NCBI RefSeq assembly: GCF_003096415.1
Contig: NZ_QEKH01000024.1
Coordinates: 1-64,000 of the forward strand
Direction: 5' to 3'
Source: Victivallis vadensis
GTDB taxonomy: Bacteria > Verrucomicrobiota > Lentisphaeria > Victivallales > Victivallaceae
DNA length: 64,000 bases
Position numbers and translations under genes: made by a program. The notes beneath the pieces were generated by a model. That model was not told where the DNA came from, ran no database searches, and saw only the letters and a program-made list of their open reading frames with translations. Every line of letters begins with the position of its first letter. Position 1 is the stretch's first letter. Below, piece by piece: positions 43,398 to 58,975 of this stretch.

Positions 43398-43466
43398 TTC
43401 TTTGCCTTTTCAATCACGAATTGCGGTGGAGTAAGGTATCATGGAATCCGTGTTTTACAAATATTT

Positions 43467-43482
43467 ATCATTGCAAAATGAT
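43467..43482. promoter_or_regulatory. Palindrome in divergent regulator region
   Basis: ATCATT-GCAA-AATGAT, a perfect 6-bp arm palindrome, lies between the divergent exported-protein gene and the GntR-type regulator, about 85 bp upstream of the regulator promoter. It may be an operator, but unlike the other cassettes it does not overlap the -10 box. Confidence 0.3.
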
Positions 43483-43567
43483 TCGATTCAATTTGCGCGG
43501 CAAAAGCCGTCTTTGTGGCTTTTTTGGGGGATTTTAGATGATTTTTGCGGTTTTTTCGGCAAAAAAT

Positions 43568-43596
43568 TTGTTTTTCGGGGCATGTTCCGGTATAAT
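43568..43596 (+). promoter_or_regulatory. Promoter of the third cassette regulator
   Basis: TTGTTT (43568-43573) and TATAAT (43591-43596) are 17 bp apart, 39 bp before the ATG at 43636. Confidence 0.6.
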
Positions 43597-43635
43597 TCAC
43601 AGCAAATGAATCTATTCACCGAAGGCGTGGGGCTT

Positions 43636-44688
43636 ATGGAAAACAAATACGAATCGCTGCGCGAAACCCTCCGGCAGCGCGCGAAACGGGAATTCGCCCC
43701 CGGCGCGAAGTTTCCGACCCAGCGGGCGCTGATGGCGGAGTACGGTGTGTCGCTCGCCACCGTTGACCGGGCGCTGCGCGAGCTGGTCGCGGAGGGAATC
43801 CTGATGCGCAGCCAGGGGCGCGGCACCTTCGTGCGCGAGGAAACCGAACTGCGCAAGCCGGCGGGCAACCAGATCGCGCTGTTGCTGGCCCGGAACGTGA
43901 CCTGCAACGCCCACGCTTTTTATGCGGAAATCCTGTTTGAAATCAACGACCGGCTCTCCGCCGCCGGATGCAGTTTCGCCTATTTCTATACCGATGAAAG
44001 CGGCACGCCGCGCGAACTGGTGCGCCACCTGACCGACGGCGGCCGTTTCCGGGGGGCGATCCTGATCAACCGGATTCCGGAGGAGCTGGCGGTCGAACTC
44101 AAGCGGGTCGGGCTGCCGTTCGTGGTGGTCGACAACCGGATCGAATCGCCCGGCGTCTGCTGCGTGACCGGCGAAAACGAGGCCGGAGCCGCCGCGATGG
44201 TTGAATATTTGATCGTGCGCGGCCACCGCCGGATCGGTTTTGTGAGTACGCCGCTGCAGACTACTTTTCTGGAACGCTACATCGGCTACTGCAACACGCT
44301 GCTCGCCCACGGAATCGCGGTGGACAATGCGATCGTGCAGCGTTTTTTCCGGTACGAGGAGGCGGAACGGGATCTGGCGAAACTGCTGGATTGCGCCGAA
44401 CCGCCCACCGCGATCTTCGCCGCCAACGATACGATGGGCGCCGCAGTCTATCGGGTGCTGAGGAAACGGGGGCTGCATATTCCGGGCGATATCAGCGTGG
44501 CGGGATTCGACGGGGATTATGTGGGTACTCAATGCGTGCCGCGGCTGACCACGGTGGAGGTTCCCCGCCGTGAAATGGGCCGCGCCGCCGCTTCGGCGCT
44601 GCTCCGGCAGATCGCCGGGGAGAAGGTGGAGTCTATTGTGCTGCCGCTGAAGCTGATTGAAAGGGAGTCCGTGTTTGCTTTGACGTGA
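43636..44688 (+). CDS. GntR-type regulator with periplasmic-binding-like sensor domain
   Basis: About 350 residues. The GntR winged helix lies near 20-70 (FPTQRALMAEYGVSLATVDRALRELVAEGIL) and the PBP1/LacI-like sensor follows (QIALLLARNVTCNAHAFYAEIL, VVDNRIESPGVCCV, GHRRIGFVSTPL, GDISVAGFDGDYVG). I chose the ATG at 43636 with GTGGGG upstream, since the frame above it is AT-rich and lies on the promoter. It is followed by 645 bp of repeat DNA before the pilin, unlike the other cassettes where the regulator is close to the pilin. Confidence 0.9.
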   Translation: MENKYESLRETLRQRAKREFAPGAKFPTQRALMAEYGVSLATVDRALRELVAEGILMRSQGRGTFVREETELRKPAGNQIALLLARNVTCNAHAFYAEILFEINDRLSAAGCSFAYFYTDESGTPRELVRHLTDGGRFRGAILINRIPEELAVELKRVGLPFVVVDNRIESPGVCCVTGENEAGAAAMVEYLIVRGHRRIGFVSTPLQTTFLERYIGYCNTLLAHGIAVDNAIVQRFFRYEEAERDLAKLLDCAEPPTAIFAANDTMGAAVYRVLRKRGLHIPGDISVAGFDGDYVGTQCVPRLTTVEVPRREMGRAAASALLRQIAGEKVESIVLPLKLIERESVFALT

Positions 44689-45333
44689 CCGCCGGGCGGC
44701 AAGGCGCCGCCGCCGGGTGCGCGCTCTACGTCCTTCGGGGTCGCGCGGCGTCTGGCGGCAAGGTGCCGCTGCCGGGTGCGCACGCCAATGCCCCTCGGGG
44801 GGCGTGCGACCAAGCACAGGCAAGGCATTGGTCTGTCTGCATAACCACTTATGCGGCGCACAACAAGCGCGGTCAGCGCCGCGAACGAATGTGAGGGCAT
44901 TACTTGCGGCAGCAAGTAACGAGGAACGATAGTGACGAAGCCGAACGTAGTGAGCGAAGCCCCTCCGGCGTAGTGAGCGCAGCGAACGGTGAGGAGTTGG
45001 CCGCCACAGGCGGACAAGTAAGGCCCGCTAGGGCCGCCCGCGAATGGAAGTGCTTGGCAAGTCAACGGGAGTCCCGAGGCGAGCGGGGAGGTCCGGAGGG
45101 CGATTGGCCCTCCGGAGCCATCCGCAGTTCAAAGCGCAACCAGTTTGTTGCCTGTAATAGCATGGAAAGGTAACTAAACTTGAGTATGATTACATGATCA
45201 CATGCGACTTGAAAGCGGAGATAAATCTCCGCACGCCAAGGTCGTCCTGCGATGATCAGGGGCGGTTTCTTTGAAGTGCGAAGTTGACATCGGATCGGAT
45301 AACAAAACACAACCGATTTACGACGGAGGGAAT
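44689..45333. repeat. Repeat-rich gene-free region between regulator and pilin
   Basis: No convincing gene is present. The first 430 bp are GC-rich and built of REP-like parts: two copies of GGCAAGG(T/C)GCCG-x-(C/T)GCCGGGTGCGC at about 44698 and 44757, repeated CGTAGTGAGCG-type units around 44950-44990, and a strong hairpin TCCGGAGGGC/GCCCTCCGGA at 45092-45116. A partial MITE-like end lies at 45195-45239. Open frames through the region are products of GC-rich repeat DNA. Confidence 0.75.
45195..45239. repeat. Partial copy of the MITE-like element
   Basis: Starting GATCACATGCGACTTGAAAG and including the small hairpin GCGGAGAT-AA-ATCTCCGC, this stretch matches the left end of the element at 53533-53724 over about 37 bp with only two or three differences. 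The right end is not found nearby, so the copy is truncated. Confidence 0.8.
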
Positions 45334-46071
45334 ATGTACAATTCAGGAAAGGATGGGCAAATGCAGTGCGGAAAGGACGTATGGTATGGAGAACTTCACC
45401 GGAATTTCACGCTGATCGAGCTGCTCGTGGTGATAGCGATCATCGCGATACTGGCGGCGCTGCTGCTTCCGGCGCTGAACATGGCCCGCGCCAAGGCGCG
45501 CGATGTGACTTGCCTGAACAACCTCAAACAGATCGGCATGGGGTTCGTCGCTTATTATGACGGGAACAACGATTATATACCGCAGCCGCAGAACCCGGAA
45601 AAGGCTTACCAGAAGTGGCAGGATTTCATTCTGCCGTATCTGACCGGGAACGGCGGGAAACGCAGCGGCGATTATCTCGGATTTTATCCGACGAAATCCG
45701 ATCTGTATATCGACAACGGGGTGCCGGTCGGCTCTTTCCGGTGCCCGGCGCAGGCGTCAGCCAGCGTGGACGACCGGTTCAAGCACTACGGGATGAACAA
45801 CAACCTGCGCGACACATCCGGGGCGACGACCAAACCGCTCAAGGTGACCCGGATCAAGCCGGGAAATTTTTCGCAGCGGCTGCTGGCGGCCGACAGCGGC
45901 AACCCGTGGGATGCGGCGGTGGATTACGCGGCGATCCTGAACAAGTTCGATCCGGACCGCCATCAGGGACGGGCGAATATCGCGTTTCTCGACGGACATA
46001 GCGCCACGCGGCGGCTGGCCGACATGCCGTGGGGCGGAAGCAGCGAGTACCGCCCGCTCTGGAAAGACTGA
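45334..46071 (+). CDS. H-X9-DG pseudopilin of the third cassette
   Basis: About 245 residues. The leader of about 24 residues ([15 protein letters not shown]...) precedes FTLIELLVV and the hydrophobic helix ending [11 protein letters not shown]. The exact H-X9-DG motif is [12 protein letters not shown] near the C terminus. The ATG at 45334 has GGAGGG upstream; an in-frame ATG at 45271 lacks one. It is followed 28 bp later by a glycoside hydrolase gene. The two cysteines after the helix (DVTCLNN, FRCPAQ) are shared with the other pilins here. Confidence 0.9.
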
Positions 46072-46099
46072 TTTTCAACGGAAAGGAATATGGAATATC

Positions 46100-48025
46100 A
46101 TGAGAATCGATCATTGGGTGCTGGGGACCGCCATGCTGGCCGCCGTCGCTGCGGCCGGAGCGGAAAAGCTCGACAAAGAATACGGCGTCAATGTGCATGT
46201 GATGTGGGAATATCAGGAGGTTCCCGACGAGTTCAGGATGCTGAAGGAGGCCGGTATTCCGATGGTGCGGGCCGATTACAGCTGGTCCCATCAGGAACGG
46301 CAGCCGGGGCAGTGGAACTGGGGACGGCACGACGCCGGGCTGGAGCAGGCGAAAAAGAACGGCCTGACGCTGCTGCCGATCCTCGGCTACGCTCCGAAGT
46401 GGCAGGAACCGGCGCACGAAAAGCTCGACGCATGGCTGGCCTTCTGTGAAAAGAATCTCGACCGTTACGGCAAGGAGATGAAATTCTGGGAGGTGTGGAA
46501 CGAACACAATCTGGCGATGTTCTGGAAGAATCCGAATCCCGACCACTACCTGAAACTGCTGAAGCCGACTTTCGACCTGATCCGGCGGAAAGCCCCGGAT
46601 GCGAAGGTGGTGCTTGGCGGCACCTCGGAGATTCCGATTCCGTACCTCGAAACTTTCTTCAAGGCAGGTGGCGCGGCATACTTCGACGTGATGAATGTCC
46701 ACCCGTACAACTGGTACGACATCCCGGAAGCGGCGCTGGAGCGCCAGCTCGCGGAGCTGAACGCGCTGATGAAGAAATACAACGTGGACAAGGAGGTCTG
46801 GATCACCGAAATCGGCTGGCCTACCATCGGCCGCGGCTTTATGAAGACCTTCCTGACCGGCGCGTTCAAGGCGGCGGGCATCCGGACGGCGGGGCTGACG
46901 TTGGCGGTGCTGGACGACAACGAAATGCCGCTGGTTTCCTCCTCTCCCGGCCTTGACTTCCGGGCGTTCTTCCCGAACCTCAAGGGAATCCGATCCGTGA
47001 CCTGCGCGGAACTCGCTTCGCTGGACCCCGCCGAGTATCCGGTGCTGATCGCCGGGCCGGACAACACCTTTTCCGCCAGGCCGGCCGACTTCGAGGCGCT
47101 GCGGAACTATGTGAAAAACGGCGGCATCGCGGTCTTTCCGCGCGGCATTCCGTTCTACACCGCATGGCGGCAGGAGCCGGACGGCACCTGGAAGCGCAGC
47201 TGGGCTGACAAGTCGTGGCGGGAACGGCTTCACCTCGACTTCGACGGCTGGTGGCTGGATCGCAGCCGTCCGTTTCCGCGCGGCTTTTCGGGCGTGGTCG
47301 CGGCGGGGCAGGAGCAGGCTTTCCCGCGCTATCGCGGGAAAGCCGGTTCCAACTGCGTGCTCAGCGGCCGGAACCTCAAGGGCAACGATAAAATGATTCC
47401 GCTGATCGAAGGGATCGGCAAGGATGCCGACGGCAGGGAGTACCGCCTCCCGCTGGCCGCGTATTACCGTTTTGACAGCGACCTGAAAGGCGGGGTGATC
47501 GCGAATACTTTCAACTATGTGGGCATGGGGCCGAGCAGCGAGGACCTGCAGGCCCGGCTGCTGCCGCGCACCATCCTTGCCGCTTTCAAGCACGGCGTGA
47601 AGAAAGTGTTCTGGTATGAGCTGCAGGCGATGGAGAACAACAACTCCGACCCGGAACACTTCTTCGGCATCCTTCATGCCGATCTTGCGCCGAAACCGGC
47701 GTGGGAGGCATATAAGACGCTGGTACGGATGCGCCCCGCCGGTTCGACCGTGCCGATTTTCCGCACGGAAAAGGGAGGAGTCCGCATTGCGGAGTGGGTC
47801 AAACCGGACGGCGGGACCGGCTGTGCGCTGTGGGTGACCGGAGCCGCTCTCAAAGCGAAAGTGAAACTGCAGGGCGCGGTGAAGTCCGCCTGCGACTATC
47901 TCGGGCAGGCCGTGCCGGTGGCCGTCGCGGAGGACGGCACGGCGGAGCTGGCGGTCTCCTCCGGCGTGCTCTATCTTGACGGCCCCGCTTCGGTATCGGT
48001 GCTGGATACAACGAAAAACAACTGA
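46100..48025 (+). CDS. Secreted GH-A clan glycoside hydrolase
   Basis: 641 residues with a signal peptide (VLGTAMLAAVAAAGAEK). The N-terminal 320 residues form a TIM barrel of clan GH-A: acid/base Glu135 in FWEVWNEHN and nucleophile Glu237 in VWITEIGWPT, which is the spacing expected for GH39/GH5-type retaining enzymes. A second region (about 320-420, SLDPAEYPVLIAGPDNTF...) looks like a glutamine amidotransferase-like/trimerisation domain as in beta-galactosidases. Exact family and substrate are not assignable by eye. It is related in layout to the enzyme at 59790. Confidence 0.85.
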   Translation: MRIDHWVLGTAMLAAVAAAGAEKLDKEYGVNVHVMWEYQEVPDEFRMLKEAGIPMVRADYSWSHQERQPGQWNWGRHDAGLEQAKKNGLTLLPILGYAPKWQEPAHEKLDAWLAFCEKNLDRYGKEMKFWEVWNEHNLAMFWKNPNPDHYLKLLKPTFDLIRRKAPDAKVVLGGTSEIPIPYLETFFKAGGAAYFDVMNVHPYNWYDIPEAALERQLAELNALMKKYNVDKEVWITEIGWPTIGRGFMKTFLTGAFKAAGIRTAGLTLAVLDDNEMPLVSSSPGLDFRAFFPNLKGIRSVTCAELASLDPAEYPVLIAGPDNTFSARPADFEALRNYVKNGGIAVFPRGIPFYTAWRQEPDGTWKRSWADKSWRERLHLDFDGWWLDRSRPFPRGFSGVVAAGQEQAFPRYRGKAGSNCVLSGRNLKGNDKMIPLIEGIGKDADGREYRLPLAAYYRFDSDLKGGVIANTFNYVGMGPSSEDLQARLLPRTILAAFKHGVKKVFWYELQAMENNNSDPEHFFGILHADLAPKPAWEAYKTLVRMRPAGSTVPIFRTEKGGVRIAEWVKPDGGTGCALWVTGAALKAKVKLQGAVKSACDYLGQAVPVAVAEDGTAELAVSSGVLYLDGPASVSVLDTTKNN

Positions 48026-48053
48026 TGAAAGTATTTGGAAAGAGTGTTGAATG

Positions 48054-49124
48054 ATGAAAGTTTCCGTTTCCCGTTTTGCGAATAATCCGTTGCTGACGCC
48101 CGGCGATCTTGCGCCGTCGCGGCCGGATTTTGAAGTCACCTGCGTTCTCAATCCCGGCGCGTTCCGGTTCGGAGGGAGAATCGGGCTGCTGCTGCGCGTC
48201 GCCGAGCGTCCCGTCCCGGAACCGGGCTTTCTGGCCACGCCGATCCTGGCGGAAGACGGGGCGGTCTCCGTGATCCGGGTGCGCGAGGACGATCCCGGCA
48301 TCAGCAGTGCCAGCTCGCGCAGTTTTGCGTGGAACGGCCGTTTCCTGCTGACCACGATGTCCCACTTCCTGATCGCGTGGAGCGACGACGGCGGCCGCAC
48401 CTTCACTCCGGACTACAGCCGCCGCCTGATGCCGGAACAGTCCTGCGAAGCCTATGGCATCGAGGACGCCCGCGTCGAGCAGGTTGACGGCGAATACCTG
48501 ATCACCTTCACCGCGGTCGGACCGGCCGGAATCGCGGTCGGCTGCCGCCGCACCCGCGACTGGCGCAGTTTCAGTTCCACCGAACTGATCCTGCCGCCGA
48601 GCAATAAGGACGCGGCACTGTTTCCGCGCCGGATCGGCGGCCGGTACCGCCTGCTGCACCGGCCGAGCGATCCCGCTTGCGGCAACCACATCTATCTGGC
48701 CGAATCGCCCGATTTGCGCTGCTGGGGGAACCACCGCTGCATCGCGATGACCCGCCCCGGCTGCTGGGATGAGGAGCGGATCGGCGCCGGAGCCGCCCCG
48801 GTCGAAACCGCCGCCGGCTGGCTGGAACTCTACCACGGCGCCGACCGGACCGGACGCTACGCACTCGGCTGTCTGCTGCTCGACCGCGACGATCCCGCCA
48901 GAGTGCTCGCCCGTTCCGAAGCGCCGTTCATGGAGCCGGAGGCGGATTACGAACTGAACGGCTTCTACGGCAACTGCATTTTCACCAACGGCCAGATCGT
49001 CGACGGTGACCGGGTCCTGCTTTACTATGGCGCGTCCGATTCGGTGGTCTGCGGCGCGGAGTTGCGGATATCCGAGCTGCTCGCCTCCCTGAAAATCGGA
49101 GATTTCGGACGGAAAACCGCCTGA
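48054..49124 (+). CDS. GH130-type mannoside phosphorylase or hydrolase
   Basis: About 356 residues, no signal peptide, five-bladed propeller type. Features resembling GH130 are the N-terminal NPLLTPGDL, VLNPGAFRFGGRIGLLLRVAER, the GIEDARVEQVDGEYLITFTAV stretch with the catalytic-type Asp, and LYHGADRTGRYALGCLLLD. Enzymes of GH130 phosphorolyse beta-mannosides to mannose 1-phosphate. It is cytoplasmic and directly follows the secreted GH-A enzyme, so the pair could release an oligosaccharide outside and split it inside. Mannan as the substrate is inference. The second of two adjacent ATGs is used. Confidence 0.82.
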   Translation: MKVSVSRFANNPLLTPGDLAPSRPDFEVTCVLNPGAFRFGGRIGLLLRVAERPVPEPGFLATPILAEDGAVSVIRVREDDPGISSASSRSFAWNGRFLLTTMSHFLIAWSDDGGRTFTPDYSRRLMPEQSCEAYGIEDARVEQVDGEYLITFTAVGPAGIAVGCRRTRDWRSFSSTELILPPSNKDAALFPRRIGGRYRLLHRPSDPACGNHIYLAESPDLRCWGNHRCIAMTRPGCWDEERIGAGAAPVETAAGWLELYHGADRTGRYALGCLLLDRDDPARVLARSEAPFMEPEADYELNGFYGNCIFTNGQIVDGDRVLLYYGASDSVVCGAELRISELLASLKIGDFGRKTA

Positions 49125-49129
49125 CGTTC

Positions 49130-49157
49130 TTGACAAACCGGATTTTTATGGTATGAT
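49130..49157 (+). promoter_or_regulatory. Promoter of the fourth cassette regulator
   Basis: TTGACA (49130-49135) and TATGAT (49152-49157) are 16 bp apart, 32 bp before the ATG at 49190. Confidence 0.7.
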
Positions 49158-49167
49158 ATCAATACCA
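49149..49167. promoter_or_regulatory. Operator copy 1, TGGTAT-N7-ATACCA
   Basis: The perfect 6-bp arms TGGTAT (49149-49154) and ATACCA (49162-49167) have a 7-bp spacer and overlap the -10 box of the regulator promoter. The same site with the same spacer occurs at 50338-50360 on the pilin promoter. Confidence 0.75.
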
Positions 49168-49189
49168 AAATAAATCAACAGGGTTTGGA

Positions 49190-50275
49190 ATGAAAAGGAT
49201 TGCCGGAAAAAACGACGTATGCCGGGAACATCTCCTGTCGGAGATCGCGGTCGGCATCTACCGTCCGGGCGAGCGGCTGCCCGCCGAACGCGAGCTGGGC
49301 GAAGCCTATCAGGTGAGCCGCAGCACCGTGCGGAACGCGCTGAACGAGCTGGAAGAGCTGGGGATCGTCGAGCGCCGCCCGCCGGTGGGCACTTTCGTGA
49401 CCGGCGAAGCCCTGAAGCGCATCGAACAACTCACTGCGCAGCCCCCGCGGCTGCGCGCCCTCTTTGTGATGACGACCGGCCAGATCGACAATCCTTTTCT
49501 GCAGCGGCTGTTTCTGGCGCTGAAGAACCGCATGCCGGAGGGCGTGGAGCTGACGGTCCGGCTGAGCGACAGCTGTTGCGGCATCTTTGAGGAGGAAAAG
49601 CCGGAATTGGTCTATCTGTTCGGCAATTACCCTGATGAGGAGCTGGAGGAAGCGGCACGGGAAGTGCCTCACCTGATGCTGTTGGGACGACGGCATCGGA
49701 ATTTGAATTTCGTGACCTGTGACGACTATGTCGGCGGGCGGCTGATGGCCGAAGCGGCGCTGCGGGCGGGGCATCGCCACTTGGCGCTGCTCGGGCCGCG
49801 CGGCACCGGCCCCGACTGTGAATTCGCGCTGCGGGCGGCCGGGGTTGCCGATGTCTGCAAAGAGAACGGCGTTCGGCTTCAAAGCCACCGCATGTCGCTG
49901 GAGGAATCTTTGAACCTGACCGCCAGCACCTTTCTGGCGCTGGATAATTTCCTGCGCGGCGATCCGGAGTTGAGCATGATTCTGGCGCTGAGCGACCGGC
50001 ATGCGATTTCCGTGATGGACTGCTGCCGCCGCCGCCATCTGGCAGTGCCGGGTGACATCAGCGTGATCGGCTGTGACGACCAGTGCTTCGTGGAGTCGAT
50101 CCGTCCTCCCCTGACCACGATCCGTTGTTCAGCGGAGGAGATCGGCGAGCGTCTGGCGGCATTCGCCCAGATGATCCTGGACGGCGGCTCCGGCAGCCGG
50201 ATCGTGCTGCGCGAGGCTCTCACGCCGTTTCTGGTTGAGCGCAAAAGCGTCCGGATTCTTCCTATTGTAGAATAA
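49190..50275 (+). CDS. GntR-type regulator with periplasmic-binding-like sensor domain
   Basis: 361 residues. The winged helix is near 15-72 (RLPAERELGEAYQVSRSTVRNALNELEELGIVERR). The sensor domain follows (LRALFVMTTGQIDNPFLQRLFLAL, VTCDDYVGGRLMAEAALRAGHRHLALLGP, PGDISVIGCDDQCFV). It is monocistronic with a matched palindrome both on its own promoter and on that of the pilin-amylase operon, so it very likely autoregulates and controls that operon. The ligand is unknown; an alpha-glucan-derived sugar is plausible given the GH13 enzyme downstream. Confidence 0.93.
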   Translation: MKRIAGKNDVCREHLLSEIAVGIYRPGERLPAERELGEAYQVSRSTVRNALNELEELGIVERRPPVGTFVTGEALKRIEQLTAQPPRLRALFVMTTGQIDNPFLQRLFLALKNRMPEGVELTVRLSDSCCGIFEEEKPELVYLFGNYPDEELEEAAREVPHLMLLGRRHRNLNFVTCDDYVGGRLMAEAALRAGHRHLALLGPRGTGPDCEFALRAAGVADVCKENGVRLQSHRMSLEESLNLTASTFLALDNFLRGDPELSMILALSDRHAISVMDCCRRRHLAVPGDISVIGCDDQCFVESIRPPLTTIRCSAEEIGERLAAFAQMILDGGSGSRIVLREALTPFLVERKSVRILPIVE

Positions 50276-50319
50276 ACATTCCTTTTTCAACTATTTTTCC
50301 ATTTTTTTTCGGTCGGGTC

Positions 50320-50348
50320 TTGACATTGTATGACTTTTATGGTATAAT
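50320..50348 (+). promoter_or_regulatory. Consensus promoter of the pilin-amylase operon
   Basis: TTGACA (50320-50325) and TATAAT (50343-50348) are both perfect and 17 bp apart. This is one of the strongest predicted promoters in the window and would need repression. Confidence 0.88.
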
Positions 50349-50360
50349 TTAAATACCATA
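50338..50360. promoter_or_regulatory. Operator copy 2, TATGGTAT-N7-ATACCATA
   Basis: Perfect 8-bp arms at 50338-50345 and 50353-50360 with a 7-bp spacer enclose the -10 hexamer. It matches operator copy 1 at 49149-49167 in arms, spacing and position relative to the promoter. Confidence 0.8.
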
Positions 50361-50374
50361 ACAAAGGAGGGAAT

Positions 50375-51118
50375 ATGAACCAAATCAATGCATCGGTAAC
50401 TCTACGGCGGCGTTCTGCATCCTGTTTTACTCTGATTGAATTGCTGGTAGTAATAGCAATCATCGCGATTCTCGCTTCGATGCTTCTGCCCGCACTGAAC
50501 AAGGCGCGGGAGATGGCGAAGAACGCCCAGTGCGTGAACGTGCTGAAACAGTTCGGCACCGCGAATCAGATGTATGCCGACAACGGCGGCTACACGGTTC
50601 CCGTTGTCTCGCATAACAGTGAGTGGACAGTCAATCCGGAATTCCGGTCGCTGCTGGGAGTTCCTGCTTATGCGTCCGGGACGGGCGGTACACTGACCTC
50701 CAACTGGCCTGCGAAGTTTCTGTGTCCGAGGGCTTCCCGGATCAACGGGTCGGCGGATGGATTTGCGATGAGCGTCAGTTATGGAATGAACCACAGCGAT
50801 TTCGGGGCGGCCAGCTTCAAAAGAAATGCGTTCAATGCCTACAAGCTCTCAAGCATCCGGAAGCCGAGCATCCTGATTCAGTGGACCGACAGCCTCGACT
50901 ATCTGGTCTACAGCCCCGGAGATCCCGCGAACTACCGTTTGCACGGGGAGGTGTACCAGGCGGATTCCGTGGCGTACCGGCACGGCAACAGGTTCAACGC
51001 CGCGTTCCTCGACGGACATGTCGCGCCGATGAACGAGGTGCAGGCGCGCTATATTTCCCAGCAGAACTATTACCATTGGAGAACGCTTGACCGGAACGGC
51101 GTCGCCATCATCGAATGA
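50375..51118 (+). CDS. H-X9-DG pseudopilin of the fourth cassette
   Basis: 247 residues. A 17-residue leader ([17 protein letters not shown]) precedes FTLIELLVV; the helix ends [11 protein letters not shown]. The exact H-X9-DG motif is [18 protein letters not shown] lies 5 bp before the ATG. It is the first gene under the consensus promoter and is followed 21 bp later by the amylase-like gene. Its leader is highly basic, as expected for a prepilin peptidase substrate. Confidence 0.93.
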
Positions 51119-51139: not shown

Positions 51140-52627
51140 ATGCTGCACAAAATGCTTCTGCCGCTGGCCCTGCTGCTGGCGGGAACTGCCGTCCCCGGAG
51201 CGGGGATCGATAATTCAGACCTGATTCCGGCGATCCTGCCCGATTCCGAAGTCAGGCTTGAAGCCGTGCCCGGCAGATCGCCCGCCAGCCCGGACTGGGT
51301 CAAGAGCCTGATCATCGTGGAAGTCAACGTGGAAACCGCTTCCCCCACCGGAAACTTCAGCGGGATGGAAAAGGTGCTCGACCATCTCGCGGAAACCGGC
51401 GTGAACGGCATCTGGCTGACGCCGATCAACGAGGGCGTGCAATACGGCAACAACGGCGTCCACACCCTGAACCGCGCCTTGACCAACCGCGACAAAGCCG
51501 AGGAACGCTGGGCGGTCGTGAAACAGTTCGTGGATGTGGCGCACCGGCGGAATATCCGGGTGTTCGTCGATGTGGTCAGCTGGGGAGTGACCAAAACGGC
51601 TCCGCTTTACAAGGAGAAGCCGGAGTGGTTTTCCGGTCCGGCGCACCCGGCATGGCAGGGGTGGGACTGGAACTGGAAGAACCCGGAATTGAACGAGTGG
51701 TTCGCCTCGCGGCTGGTCGACTTCATCCTGCTGACCGGCGCGGACGGATTCCGGGCCGACTGCGCGCCGTTCAGCGCCGGGTACGGCCCATACCGCACTG
51801 CCCGGGAACGGCTGTTGAGCTTCGGCCGCAAGATCATCCTGTTCGGCGAAAACGGCAGCACCCGTGAAAAGACCTTCGATTTCGACCAGAACGCTTTCAT
51901 GCTGCCGCACAAGAAGCCCAGGATGCGCGGCGACGTATTCATGGAGAAAAACATCGTCGACATGATCAAAAACGGCGAGGAACTCGGCTGGTTTGACGGC
52001 CGGGGGGCGTTCAGCGAGAACGGCGGAAACGAGCGGTTCTACGCGCTGACGCTTTCCAGCCATGACAGCGCACACAGCGACAAGCGCGGTTACACCGCCG
52101 CGGGAAATCCGATCACGTTCGGTTACGGGATGATTTTCGCGCCGTTCATTCCGATCTGGTACATCGGCGAGGAGTGGAACAACCCGTATTCGCGCCAAAT
52201 CCCCTCCTACTGGCTCTGGGCGAACCGGATCGACTGGAGGAAGCGGGAGGAAAACCGCGATTTTTATGAGCTGGTCAAGCGGATGATCCGCATCCGCCGC
52301 CAGTATCCGGAAATCTTCGAGGAGTTTCCCGCTTCGCACCGCAATGCCAATATCTTAAAGGTGCAGACCAATCATCCCGAACTGCTGCAGGCCTACGCCC
52401 GCTATCGGAACCGGTCGGCGATCTTCGTCGTGCCGAACAATGGAACCGAAACCGCAAAGTTCCGGATCACGATTCCGTACAGGGAGACCGGAATCGGCGA
52501 CACCGATGTTACCGTGACCGATCTGCTCAACGAAAAACAGCTCGATTCCGGCCGTCCCGAAGCGATCGAGGCGGAGATTCCGGCCGGAATGCTCGGAGTC
52601 TATCTGGTCACCATGCAGAAGAAATGA
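51140..52627 (+). CDS. Secreted GH13-type alpha-amylase-like enzyme
   Basis: 495 residues with a signal peptide (LLPLALLLAGTAVPGAG). The GH13 barrel is recognisable: GIWLTPINEG, nucleophile Asp207 (GADGFRADCAPF), acid/base Glu237 (IILFGENGS) and Asp309 (LSSHDSAHS). The usual DxxxNH of region I is replaced by VFVDVVSWG, which is unusual and may change the substrate. A C-terminal beta domain (about 420-495) follows. It would act outside the cytoplasm on an alpha-glucan or related glycan. Its stop overlaps the start of the next gene (ATGA). Confidence 0.85.
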   Translation: MLHKMLLPLALLLAGTAVPGAGIDNSDLIPAILPDSEVRLEAVPGRSPASPDWVKSLIIVEVNVETASPTGNFSGMEKVLDHLAETGVNGIWLTPINEGVQYGNNGVHTLNRALTNRDKAEERWAVVKQFVDVAHRRNIRVFVDVVSWGVTKTAPLYKEKPEWFSGPAHPAWQGWDWNWKNPELNEWFASRLVDFILLTGADGFRADCAPFSAGYGPYRTARERLLSFGRKIILFGENGSTREKTFDFDQNAFMLPHKKPRMRGDVFMEKNIVDMIKNGEELGWFDGRGAFSENGGNERFYALTLSSHDSAHSDKRGYTAAGNPITFGYGMIFAPFIPIWYIGEEWNNPYSRQIPSYWLWANRIDWRKREENRDFYELVKRMIRIRRQYPEIFEEFPASHRNANILKVQTNHPELLQAYARYRNRSAIFVVPNNGTETAKFRITIPYRETGIGDTDVTVTDLLNEKQLDSGRPEAIEAEIPAGMLGVYLVTMQKK

Positions 52628-53496
52628 GCAGGAAGCGGTTCGGTGCCGGGGCGGTGTTGGCTGCTGTACTTTTAGCTGGCTGTGCCGCTGCCGGTGAGTT
52701 TGTGGTCGACAACGGCAGTTTCCGGGTTGAATTCGTCGATCCGAATGATCCGCAACTCGGCTGCCGCTTTCTGCGGGCGGGCTGGATCAGGAGTCTGCAT
52801 CCGGCCGGAAGCCGCGAAAGTATCTTCGTGATGGAGAGCCTGTTCGGTTTTCATCCTGCTTTCGGCTATGCCTGTGAAATCTATCCGGCGCTGGACCTGA
52901 AGGGTTTGCAGGCGTTGCAGATCGGCGTCGGTGTCATCGAACGGCATCCGCAGTCCCGCTACCATTCCCGCCCGGTTGAGTTGTTCCCGTGGCAAATCAG
53001 CCGGGAAATGCGGGAAAGAGAAACGGTTATGACGGCGCGGCAGCACTCCGGCGATCATTCCGGCTACGCCTATGAACTGACGGTGGAAATCGTGATTCCG
53101 GCAAATTCGCCGGTGATCCTCTGGAAGTATTCCCTCGCCAATACCGGTTCACGTCCGTTTGCGGGGAGTACCTACGCGCATCCGTTTTTCAAGGCCTGTC
53201 CCGGCTTTCCCGGCGGCTGGTATGCGTTGCCGGGCGGAAAACGTCAGCCGGTTGCCGCGCTCCTTCCCGAAAAGACGCTTGAAGCCACGGAGATTCCGCA
53301 GGATTGCCGGGCAATCGCCGCCGGGGGGCTGGCTTCCGGCGGATATGTCGCCGTGATTTCCGCCGACCGGCCGTTCAACCGGATTGACCTCTGGCGCAGT
53401 GAAACCGACTGTTTCGCAGTGGAGCCGTACCTGCCGTTGAACCTTGCTCCCGGAGAATGCCGCGAATGGAGTTGGCGGCTTGAGATCCGCCGGTAA
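52624..53496 (+). CDS. Lipoprotein with mutarotase-like features, function unknown
   Basis: 290 residues. A lipoprotein signal (GAVLAAVLLAGCAAAG) is followed by a beta-rich region (FVVDNGSFRVEFVDPNDPQLGCRFLRAGWIRSL...; PVILWKYSLANTGSRPFAGSTYAHPFF) that resembles the galactose-mutarotase-like fold. The conserved His pair of aldose epimerases is not clear, so I give no enzymatic function. It is translationally coupled to the amylase-like gene and probably acts on its products or helps bind the glycan at the cell surface. Confidence 0.65.
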   Translation: MSRKRFGAGAVLAAVLLAGCAAAGEFVVDNGSFRVEFVDPNDPQLGCRFLRAGWIRSLHPAGSRESIFVMESLFGFHPAFGYACEIYPALDLKGLQALQIGVGVIERHPQSRYHSRPVELFPWQISREMRERETVMTARQHSGDHSGYAYELTVEIVIPANSPVILWKYSLANTGSRPFAGSTYAHPFFKACPGFPGGWYALPGGKRQPVAALLPEKTLEATEIPQDCRAIAAGGLASGGYVAVISADRPFNRIDLWRSETDCFAVEPYLPLNLAPGECREWSWRLEIRR

Positions 53497-57832: not shown

Positions 57833-57866
57833 AACCGTGTACATTATTTGCAGTAACCGTGTACAT
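57833..57866. promoter_or_regulatory. Direct-repeat operator of the fifth cassette
   Basis: AACCGTGTACAT occurs at 57833-57844 and 57855-57866, exactly 22 bp apart (two helical turns). The second copy lies between the -35 and -10 boxes. A third, inverted half-site ACACGGT lies at 57801-57807. Probably bound by the regulator encoded just downstream. Confidence 0.6.
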
Positions 57867-57910: not shown

Positions 57911-58975
57911 ATGATTCTGCAGGAACGGACCGACGCCGTTTACGGCGAACTGCGCCGGGAACTGCTGCGCTTCACGCCGGGCAGCCGGTTCTATTCGGTG
58001 CGCCAGCTGATGCTCCGCTACGGCGTCAGCCGCCGCGTGATCGATGCGGCTGTGGAGCAGCTGGAACGCGAGCAGGCCGTCGAAGCCCGCCCCGGCAGCG
58101 GCATCTATGTGAAGCAGACTTCGCCGCGCAAACGGGTCGCGGTGTTTCTGCCGGACTGGCCGAGCGAGGGGAACCGGCGCTTTTCACAGGATCTGCGCGC
58201 CGAGTTCGCGAAGCGGTCCGAACGGTGGGATTTTTCGATCGTGCCCTACGACCATCAGGGGAGTATCCTGCGCGTTGTCGCGGAAACCGCCGCCGCCGTC
58301 AGCATCCTGATCTGGCCGGGGCGTCTGGTCAGCCGGGAGGAACTTGGCGAACTGGCCCGGCTTCCGGGGGAAACGGTGATGATGTGGAACGATCTCTATG
58401 GCGTGTCGATCCATTCGGTCTGCGCCAACAGCGAGTACGGCGGGATGCTGGCCGCGGCCGGATTCATCCGCAAGGGACACCGCAAGCTCGCGGTGATCGC
58501 CTCCGAACCGCGCAACCACGACATCGTCGACCGGATCGCCGGATTCGTCAACACCGCCCGGCTGTTCGGTGCGGAGGCCGTCGAAATTCCGTGCGAAATC
58601 CATCCCGGCGATTATTCGACCGGATGCGCCCACGACGCGATGGCCGAATATCTGGCCGCGCACCGCTGCGGTTTCACCGGTCTGTTCACGATGAGCGACG
58701 AGTCCACGCAGGGCATCATCTCCGCGCTGGCTGAATTCGACCTGCATGTGCCGGACGAAGTCAGCATCATCAGCTACGGCAACGACCGCAACGCCGACTT
58801 CTTCATGCCGCCGTTGACCACGGTCAGCGGCTGCCAGACCGAGTGCGCCCGGCGGCTCGCCGCCGAGCTTGACCGCCGTGAGGAGACTCACGACAGTTCC
58901 ACGATCTACATTCGCGCCAACCCGAGCCTGATCGAACGTGAATCCGTTAAAAATTTAAAAGCCCCCAAAAAATAG
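57911..58975 (+). CDS. GntR-type regulator with periplasmic-binding-like sensor domain
   Basis: 354 residues. The winged helix lies near 20-70 ([28 protein letters not shown]) and the sensor domain after it ([70 protein letters not shown]). GGAGG precedes the ATG. The next gene, a pilin, starts 11 bp later, so regulator, pilin and two enzymes probably form one transcript. Confidence 0.92.

Follow-up and report, generated by a model that had tools for sequence, protein, structure and literature searches.

A predicted operator shared by an AraR-like repressor gene and a pilin-glycosidase operon in Victivallis vadensis

Genes, promoters and palindromes at the locus

The window analysed here is a stretch of 64,000 nt of the Victivallis vadensis genome (contig NZ_QEKH01000024.1, positions 1 to 64,000). 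The locus under study comprises a regulator gene and the operon that follows it, each behind a promoter overlapped by the same palindrome:

49130..49157, + strand: regulator promoter, TTGACA (49130), 16-bp spacer, TATGAT (49152-49157), extended -10 TGG; 11/12 consensus matches
49149..49167, no strand: predicted operator 1, TGGTATGATATCAATACCA, an exact match to TGGTAT-N7-ATACCA, over the -10 of the regulator promoter
49190..50275, + strand: transcription regulator of 361 aa, GntR-type winged helix and LacI-type sugar-sensor-like domain (Pfam)
50320..50348, + strand: pilin operon promoter, TTGACA (50320), 17-bp spacer, TATAAT (50343-50348), extended -10; 12/12 consensus matches
50337..50361, no strand: predicted operator 2, perfect 9-bp arms, TTATGGTAT-N7-ATACCATAA, over the -10 of the pilin promoter
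50375..51118, + strand: prepilin-type protein (N_methyl, DUF1559-like), first gene of the operon (Pfam N_methyl 3.2e-6, NCBIfam TIGR02532)
51140..52627, + strand: GH13 alpha-amylase-family protein with a signal-peptide-like start (Pfam Alpha-amylase 1.6e-8)
52624..53496, + strand: lipoprotein-like protein, family unassigned; its start overlaps the GH13 stop

The regulator had been described from the bare sequence as GntR-type. Its N-terminus is indeed a GntR winged helix (PF00392, E 4.9e-20, residues 13-70), which places it in the GntR family, but the description was incomplete. The C-terminal part matches PF13377, Peripla_BP_3 (E 9.9e-24, residues 190-354), the type of effector domain found in the AraR subfamily, so that the protein is a GntR/LacI hybrid. 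Its sequence matches in the PDB are to the LacI and GntR families and include the effector domain of the arabinose repressor (3tb6, E 1.4e-6). A GntR winged helix joined to a LacI-type domain is the architecture of Bacillus subtilis AraR.

The first gene of the operon, previously called a pilin, has the N_methyl prepilin-type start and is more exactly a DUF1559-like prepilin-type protein. The GH13 gene and the lipoprotein-like gene, whose product had no Pfam or NCBIfam match, are probably co-transcribed, since the start of the latter at 52624 overlaps the stop of the former.

The regulator and pilin promoters are the top sigma-70-like matches of the region, and both copies of the palindrome announced by the sequence-only reading were recovered on them. 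The one on the regulator -10, at 49149-49167, is exact. The one around the TATAAT of the pilin promoter had been placed at 50338-50360; within these limits the arms are 8 bp long, and a ninth pair extends them to 50337-50361. Its core, TGGTATAATTTAAATACCA at 50340-50358, is again an exact TGGTAT-N7-ATACCA. One palindrome thus overlaps core elements of both the regulator and the target promoter, the arrangement of an autoregulated local repressor. Because the left half-site is also the extended -10, the predicted operator is built into the promoter.

Distribution of the palindrome in the genome and in relatives

The whole assembly (87 contigs, 5,199,916 bp) was scanned for further copies, a check that the sequence-only reading had proposed, with many random copies as the outcome that would count against it. 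Only two exact copies exist in the 5.2-Mb genome, both at this locus. Five others have one mismatch, giving seven matches in total versus three for the reversed control pattern. Together with a scan of 78 genomes of the family, this rules out many random copies of the motif.

The left arm, however, is unspecific. The pattern TTGAC-N14-16-TGGTAT(A/G)AT occurs in 42 promoters genome-wide (reversed control, 0), so that TGGTAT simply reflects the extended -10 in general use in this genome, and all the information lies in the right arm, ATACCA. At least five of its six positions match at the right distance in 3 of the 42 promoters, namely at the two window sites and at C36:35134-35152. Taking same-position base frequencies in the other 39 extended -10 promoters, the probability of an exact right arm is 3.8e-4 for one promoter and 1.4e-7 for the two window sites together. 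The third promoter belongs to the closest paralogue of the regulator in its own genome (31% identity, E 5e-39; the next best match is at 2.6e-14), and its site, TGGTATAATTATAGTACCA, is one base off the consensus arms. More generally, any palindrome read from Victivallis sequence has to be corrected for TGGTATAAT, the generic extended -10.

In the genome with the nearest orthologue (74% identity), that of an uncultured Victivallis sp. MAG (G075, NZ_CALXSK010000006.1), the regulator's own promoter carries TGGTATGTTATTGAAACCA, with one mismatch, at the same place as operator 1. The pilin and GH39/arabinofuranosidase-like gene that comes next has an exact site on its promoter, identical to operator 2 over 19/19 bp, and these 19 bp were kept even as the spacer between -35 and -10 diverged.

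In two other genomes the site was found at targets unlinked to the regulator. Genome G073 has a 58% orthologue on contig C8, with TGGTATAATTAAAGTGCCA in its promoter, and on another contig, C25, a pilin-esterase-GH13 operon under TGGTATAATTAAAATATCA, whose GH13 protein is 55% identical to that of the window. On C112 of the same genome, a GH39-like gene is preceded by the symmetric variant AGGTATAATTATGATACCT, in which both outer bases are changed and the symmetry is kept; it is a candidate member of the regulon. Genome G068 has an exact site before a GH39-like gene on C1 and a 50% orthologue on C27. The promoter of this orthologue retains the left half only (TGGTAACTTTTCCGAACAA) although its helix-turn-helix (HTH) is intact, which suggests that autorepression is not universal. 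More distant regulators in G022 and G026, about 30% identical, each have two sites, one upstream of the -35 and one on the -10, 42-43 bp apart.

The exact promoter form TGGTATRATNNNNATACCA occurs seven times across the 78 family genomes (reversed control, 0). Four of these copies have a -35 box and are among the sites named above; the three genomes that carry them all possess the orthologue. No -35 box accompanies the remaining three, of which the G015 and G028 copies fall within long open frames and the G072 copy just before a possible gene start. As negative controls, the GH13 copies on C1 of the V. vadensis genome and C24 of G075, as well as the GH39-like gene on C3 of V. vadensis, have no site at up to two mismatches, and the GH13 copy on C1 of G068 has only a weak match, far upstream and without promoter context.

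In a phylogenetic tree, all operator bearers belong to a single ten-protein clade with support 100/99, which also takes in the G024 protein, whose contig begins inside the regulator gene, the half-site regulator of G068 and two proteins without a site. The HTH residues S-R-x-T-(V/I)-R are common to all aligned operator bearers; in the two clade members without an operator, the last R of this motif is replaced by K or S.

The predicted circuit and its alternatives

Operators of the GntR family follow the consensus Ny-GT-Nx-AC-Ny, and AraR forms a minor subfamily of this family (PMC4494728). Both window sites fit this palindromic form, as TG-GT-N11-AC-CA. The regulator resembles B. subtilis AraR in its GntR winged helix, its LacI/GalR-type sensor domain and the palindromic boxes at its predicted targets (PMC4218819). 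R41 and R45 of the AraR recognition helix have likely counterparts in R44 and R48, matched through the motif S-R-x-T-V-R only, and the paired sites of G022 and G026 recall the cooperative in-phase boxes of AraR. In contrast, the AraR box, At(T/A)tGTaCGTAcaa(A/T)T, has the spacing GT-N4-AC (PMC4218819), whereas the window sites and those of the operator-bearing relatives have GT-N11-AC; for this reason we consider the regulator AraR-like in architecture and do not file it as an AraR orthologue. The targets differ as well, arabinose metabolism for AraR versus pilin and glycosidase genes here.

The half-site word itself is shared with NanR (TGGTATAW), NagQ (TGGTATT) and GabR (ATACCA). These regulators belong to other subfamilies and use direct repeats (PMC4494728), whereas the half-sites described here are inverted around a 7-bp spacer. 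Operators of the YtrA subfamily similarly have their GT and AC pairs far from the centre of the palindrome, but the C-terminal domain of YtrA proteins is short and their targets are mostly ABC transporters (PMC4494728), unlike the present regulator with its LacI-type domain and secreted glycosidases as predicted targets.

We hold with considerable confidence that the adjacent AraR-like repressor has TGGTAT-N7-ATACCA as its operator; it would repress its own gene, respond to a sugar and block RNA polymerase at both promoters. Without inducer, a regulator dimer would sit on each site and cover the -10, keeping RNA polymerase off two near-consensus promoters, that of the regulator itself (autorepression) and that of the operon formed by the pilin gene, the GH13 gene and the third gene. 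A small sugar, probably freed from the polysaccharide attacked by the operon products, would then bind the LacI-type domain, and the DNA would be released. That a sugar would relieve the repression, as predicted earlier, is a sound inference to draw from where the operator lies and from the presence of a LacI-type sensor domain. As to which sugar, the GH39/arabinofuranosidase-like targets in G075 and G068 give only a hint of L-arabinose; since the downstream enzyme differs (GH13 in the window and G073, GH39-like in G075 and G068), a single inducer is not obvious.

The main competing explanation is that another repressor, most plausibly the paralogue on C36, is the principal protein on these sites, the adjacent regulator being minor or sharing its targets. 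The C36 operator is only one base from the consensus arms, and S-R-x-T-V-R is common to both HTHs. Nevertheless, the two exact sites flank the gene of the adjacent regulator, and G075, G073 and G068 each have the orthologue of that regulator together with its sites. A further clade member above E 1e-20 exists in just one of the three, G073, and the promoter of that member is without operator. We regard a leading role of the C36 protein as improbable, though some cross-talk with it may occur. Even less probable is that the adjacent regulator binds the sites as an activator or dual regulator. Some GntR-family proteins are activators, and a LacI-type sensor domain does not set the sign of regulation, but a site on the -10 of near-perfect promoters (11/12 and 12/12) leaves little to activate and favours polymerase exclusion.

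The repeat could also be a by-product, its left arm a generic extended -10 and its right arm a chance occurrence in A+T-rich initial transcribed sequence. The left arm is indeed present in 42 promoters, and the right-arm positions are A/T-rich. This explanation has next to no probability, given the exact right arm in both window promoters (p about 1.4e-7) and its retention in relatives at orthologous and unlinked targets, the opposite of what it would predict; the right-arm counts over the 42 like promoters rule out a chance or promoter by-product.

For the adjacent repressor, then, the claim that regulator, pilin and amylase are linked in one regulon is supported by the genome-wide uniqueness of the site, its conservation at both promoters in G075 and the trans-located targets in G073 and G068. 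As the same switch lies on both promoters and follows the repressor into related genomes, the regulator, pilin and GH13 genes very probably form one small regulon.

Recurrent repressor-pilin-glycosidase modules

Thirty-five of the 42 extended -10 promoters (loci L111-L150 and others) lead into LacI- or GntR-type regulator genes. This count is a reading of N-termini; all ten that were checked had a Pfam LacI or GntR HTH, though in two or three cases the match fell short of the curated cut-off. For 23 of the 35 regulators, a pilin motif lies at most 200 nt downstream. Given this recurring pattern, the window locus is a well-supported example of a recurrent repressor-pilin-glycosidase module. In the window the pilin is served by a separate promoter and operator, whereas at C36 it comes directly after the regulator, the two apparently forming one operon. 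A second promoter with the site was found in the window module only, among the 42 promoter loci, many of which end a few hundred bases past the regulator.

Several further observations concern other modules. Many of the 42 promoters have a different palindrome of their own immediately behind the -10, such as an AACGTTT-like box. Directly upstream of the locus, at 43441-49124, lies a second module encoding a GntR/LacI regulator, a pilin, a GH53/GH_cc-like protein and a GH130 mannoside phosphorylase-like protein; at the settings used, the promoters of its regulator (43441) and its pilin (45271) showed no operator in common. Just upstream of another GntR/LacI-type regulator (57911-58975), AACCGTGTACAT is present twice in direct orientation at 57833-57866, with the copies 22 bp apart, and may be the operator of that regulator. 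Upstream of more distant GntR/LacI regulators (L068, L070, L067), the -10 is followed by GTTGTTGGTACAA, consistent with an AraR-like box, TTGT-N4-ACAA. At L172 (G075:C24) and L170 (C1 of genome G000), two pilin start motifs stand close together, and the first is cut off after FTLIELLV, as though an intact pilin were preceded by an incomplete copy.

A broader reading, which we offer tentatively and consider possible rather than likely, is that Victivallis may run dozens of parallel circuits, each with a sugar-type repressor, a near-perfect extended -10 promoter with an operator on it, and a pilin-like gene and glycosidases as regulated partners. In that case, each pilin-like protein might be a component of polysaccharide capture or enzyme display that is dedicated to one substrate and switched on by its own sugar, and the whole might be a Lentisphaerae counterpart of the polysaccharide utilization loci of Bacteroides. 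The window locus would be a variant with a duplicated operator and a promoter of the pilin's own.

The repressor-operator circuit itself is of an ordinary, known kind and is well supported. Literature searches on Victivallis pilins and Lentisphaerae regulons found nothing relevant; the site provides a concrete predicted operator for a repressor in a phylum where these searches found none described of this kind. It also ties a pilin-like gene to glycosidases by shared regulation, beyond adjacency. Finally, since the predicted operator is found at unlinked operons in other species that have the regulator, it appears that a small regulon can swap its enzymes, GH13 versus GH39-like, while the switch is kept.
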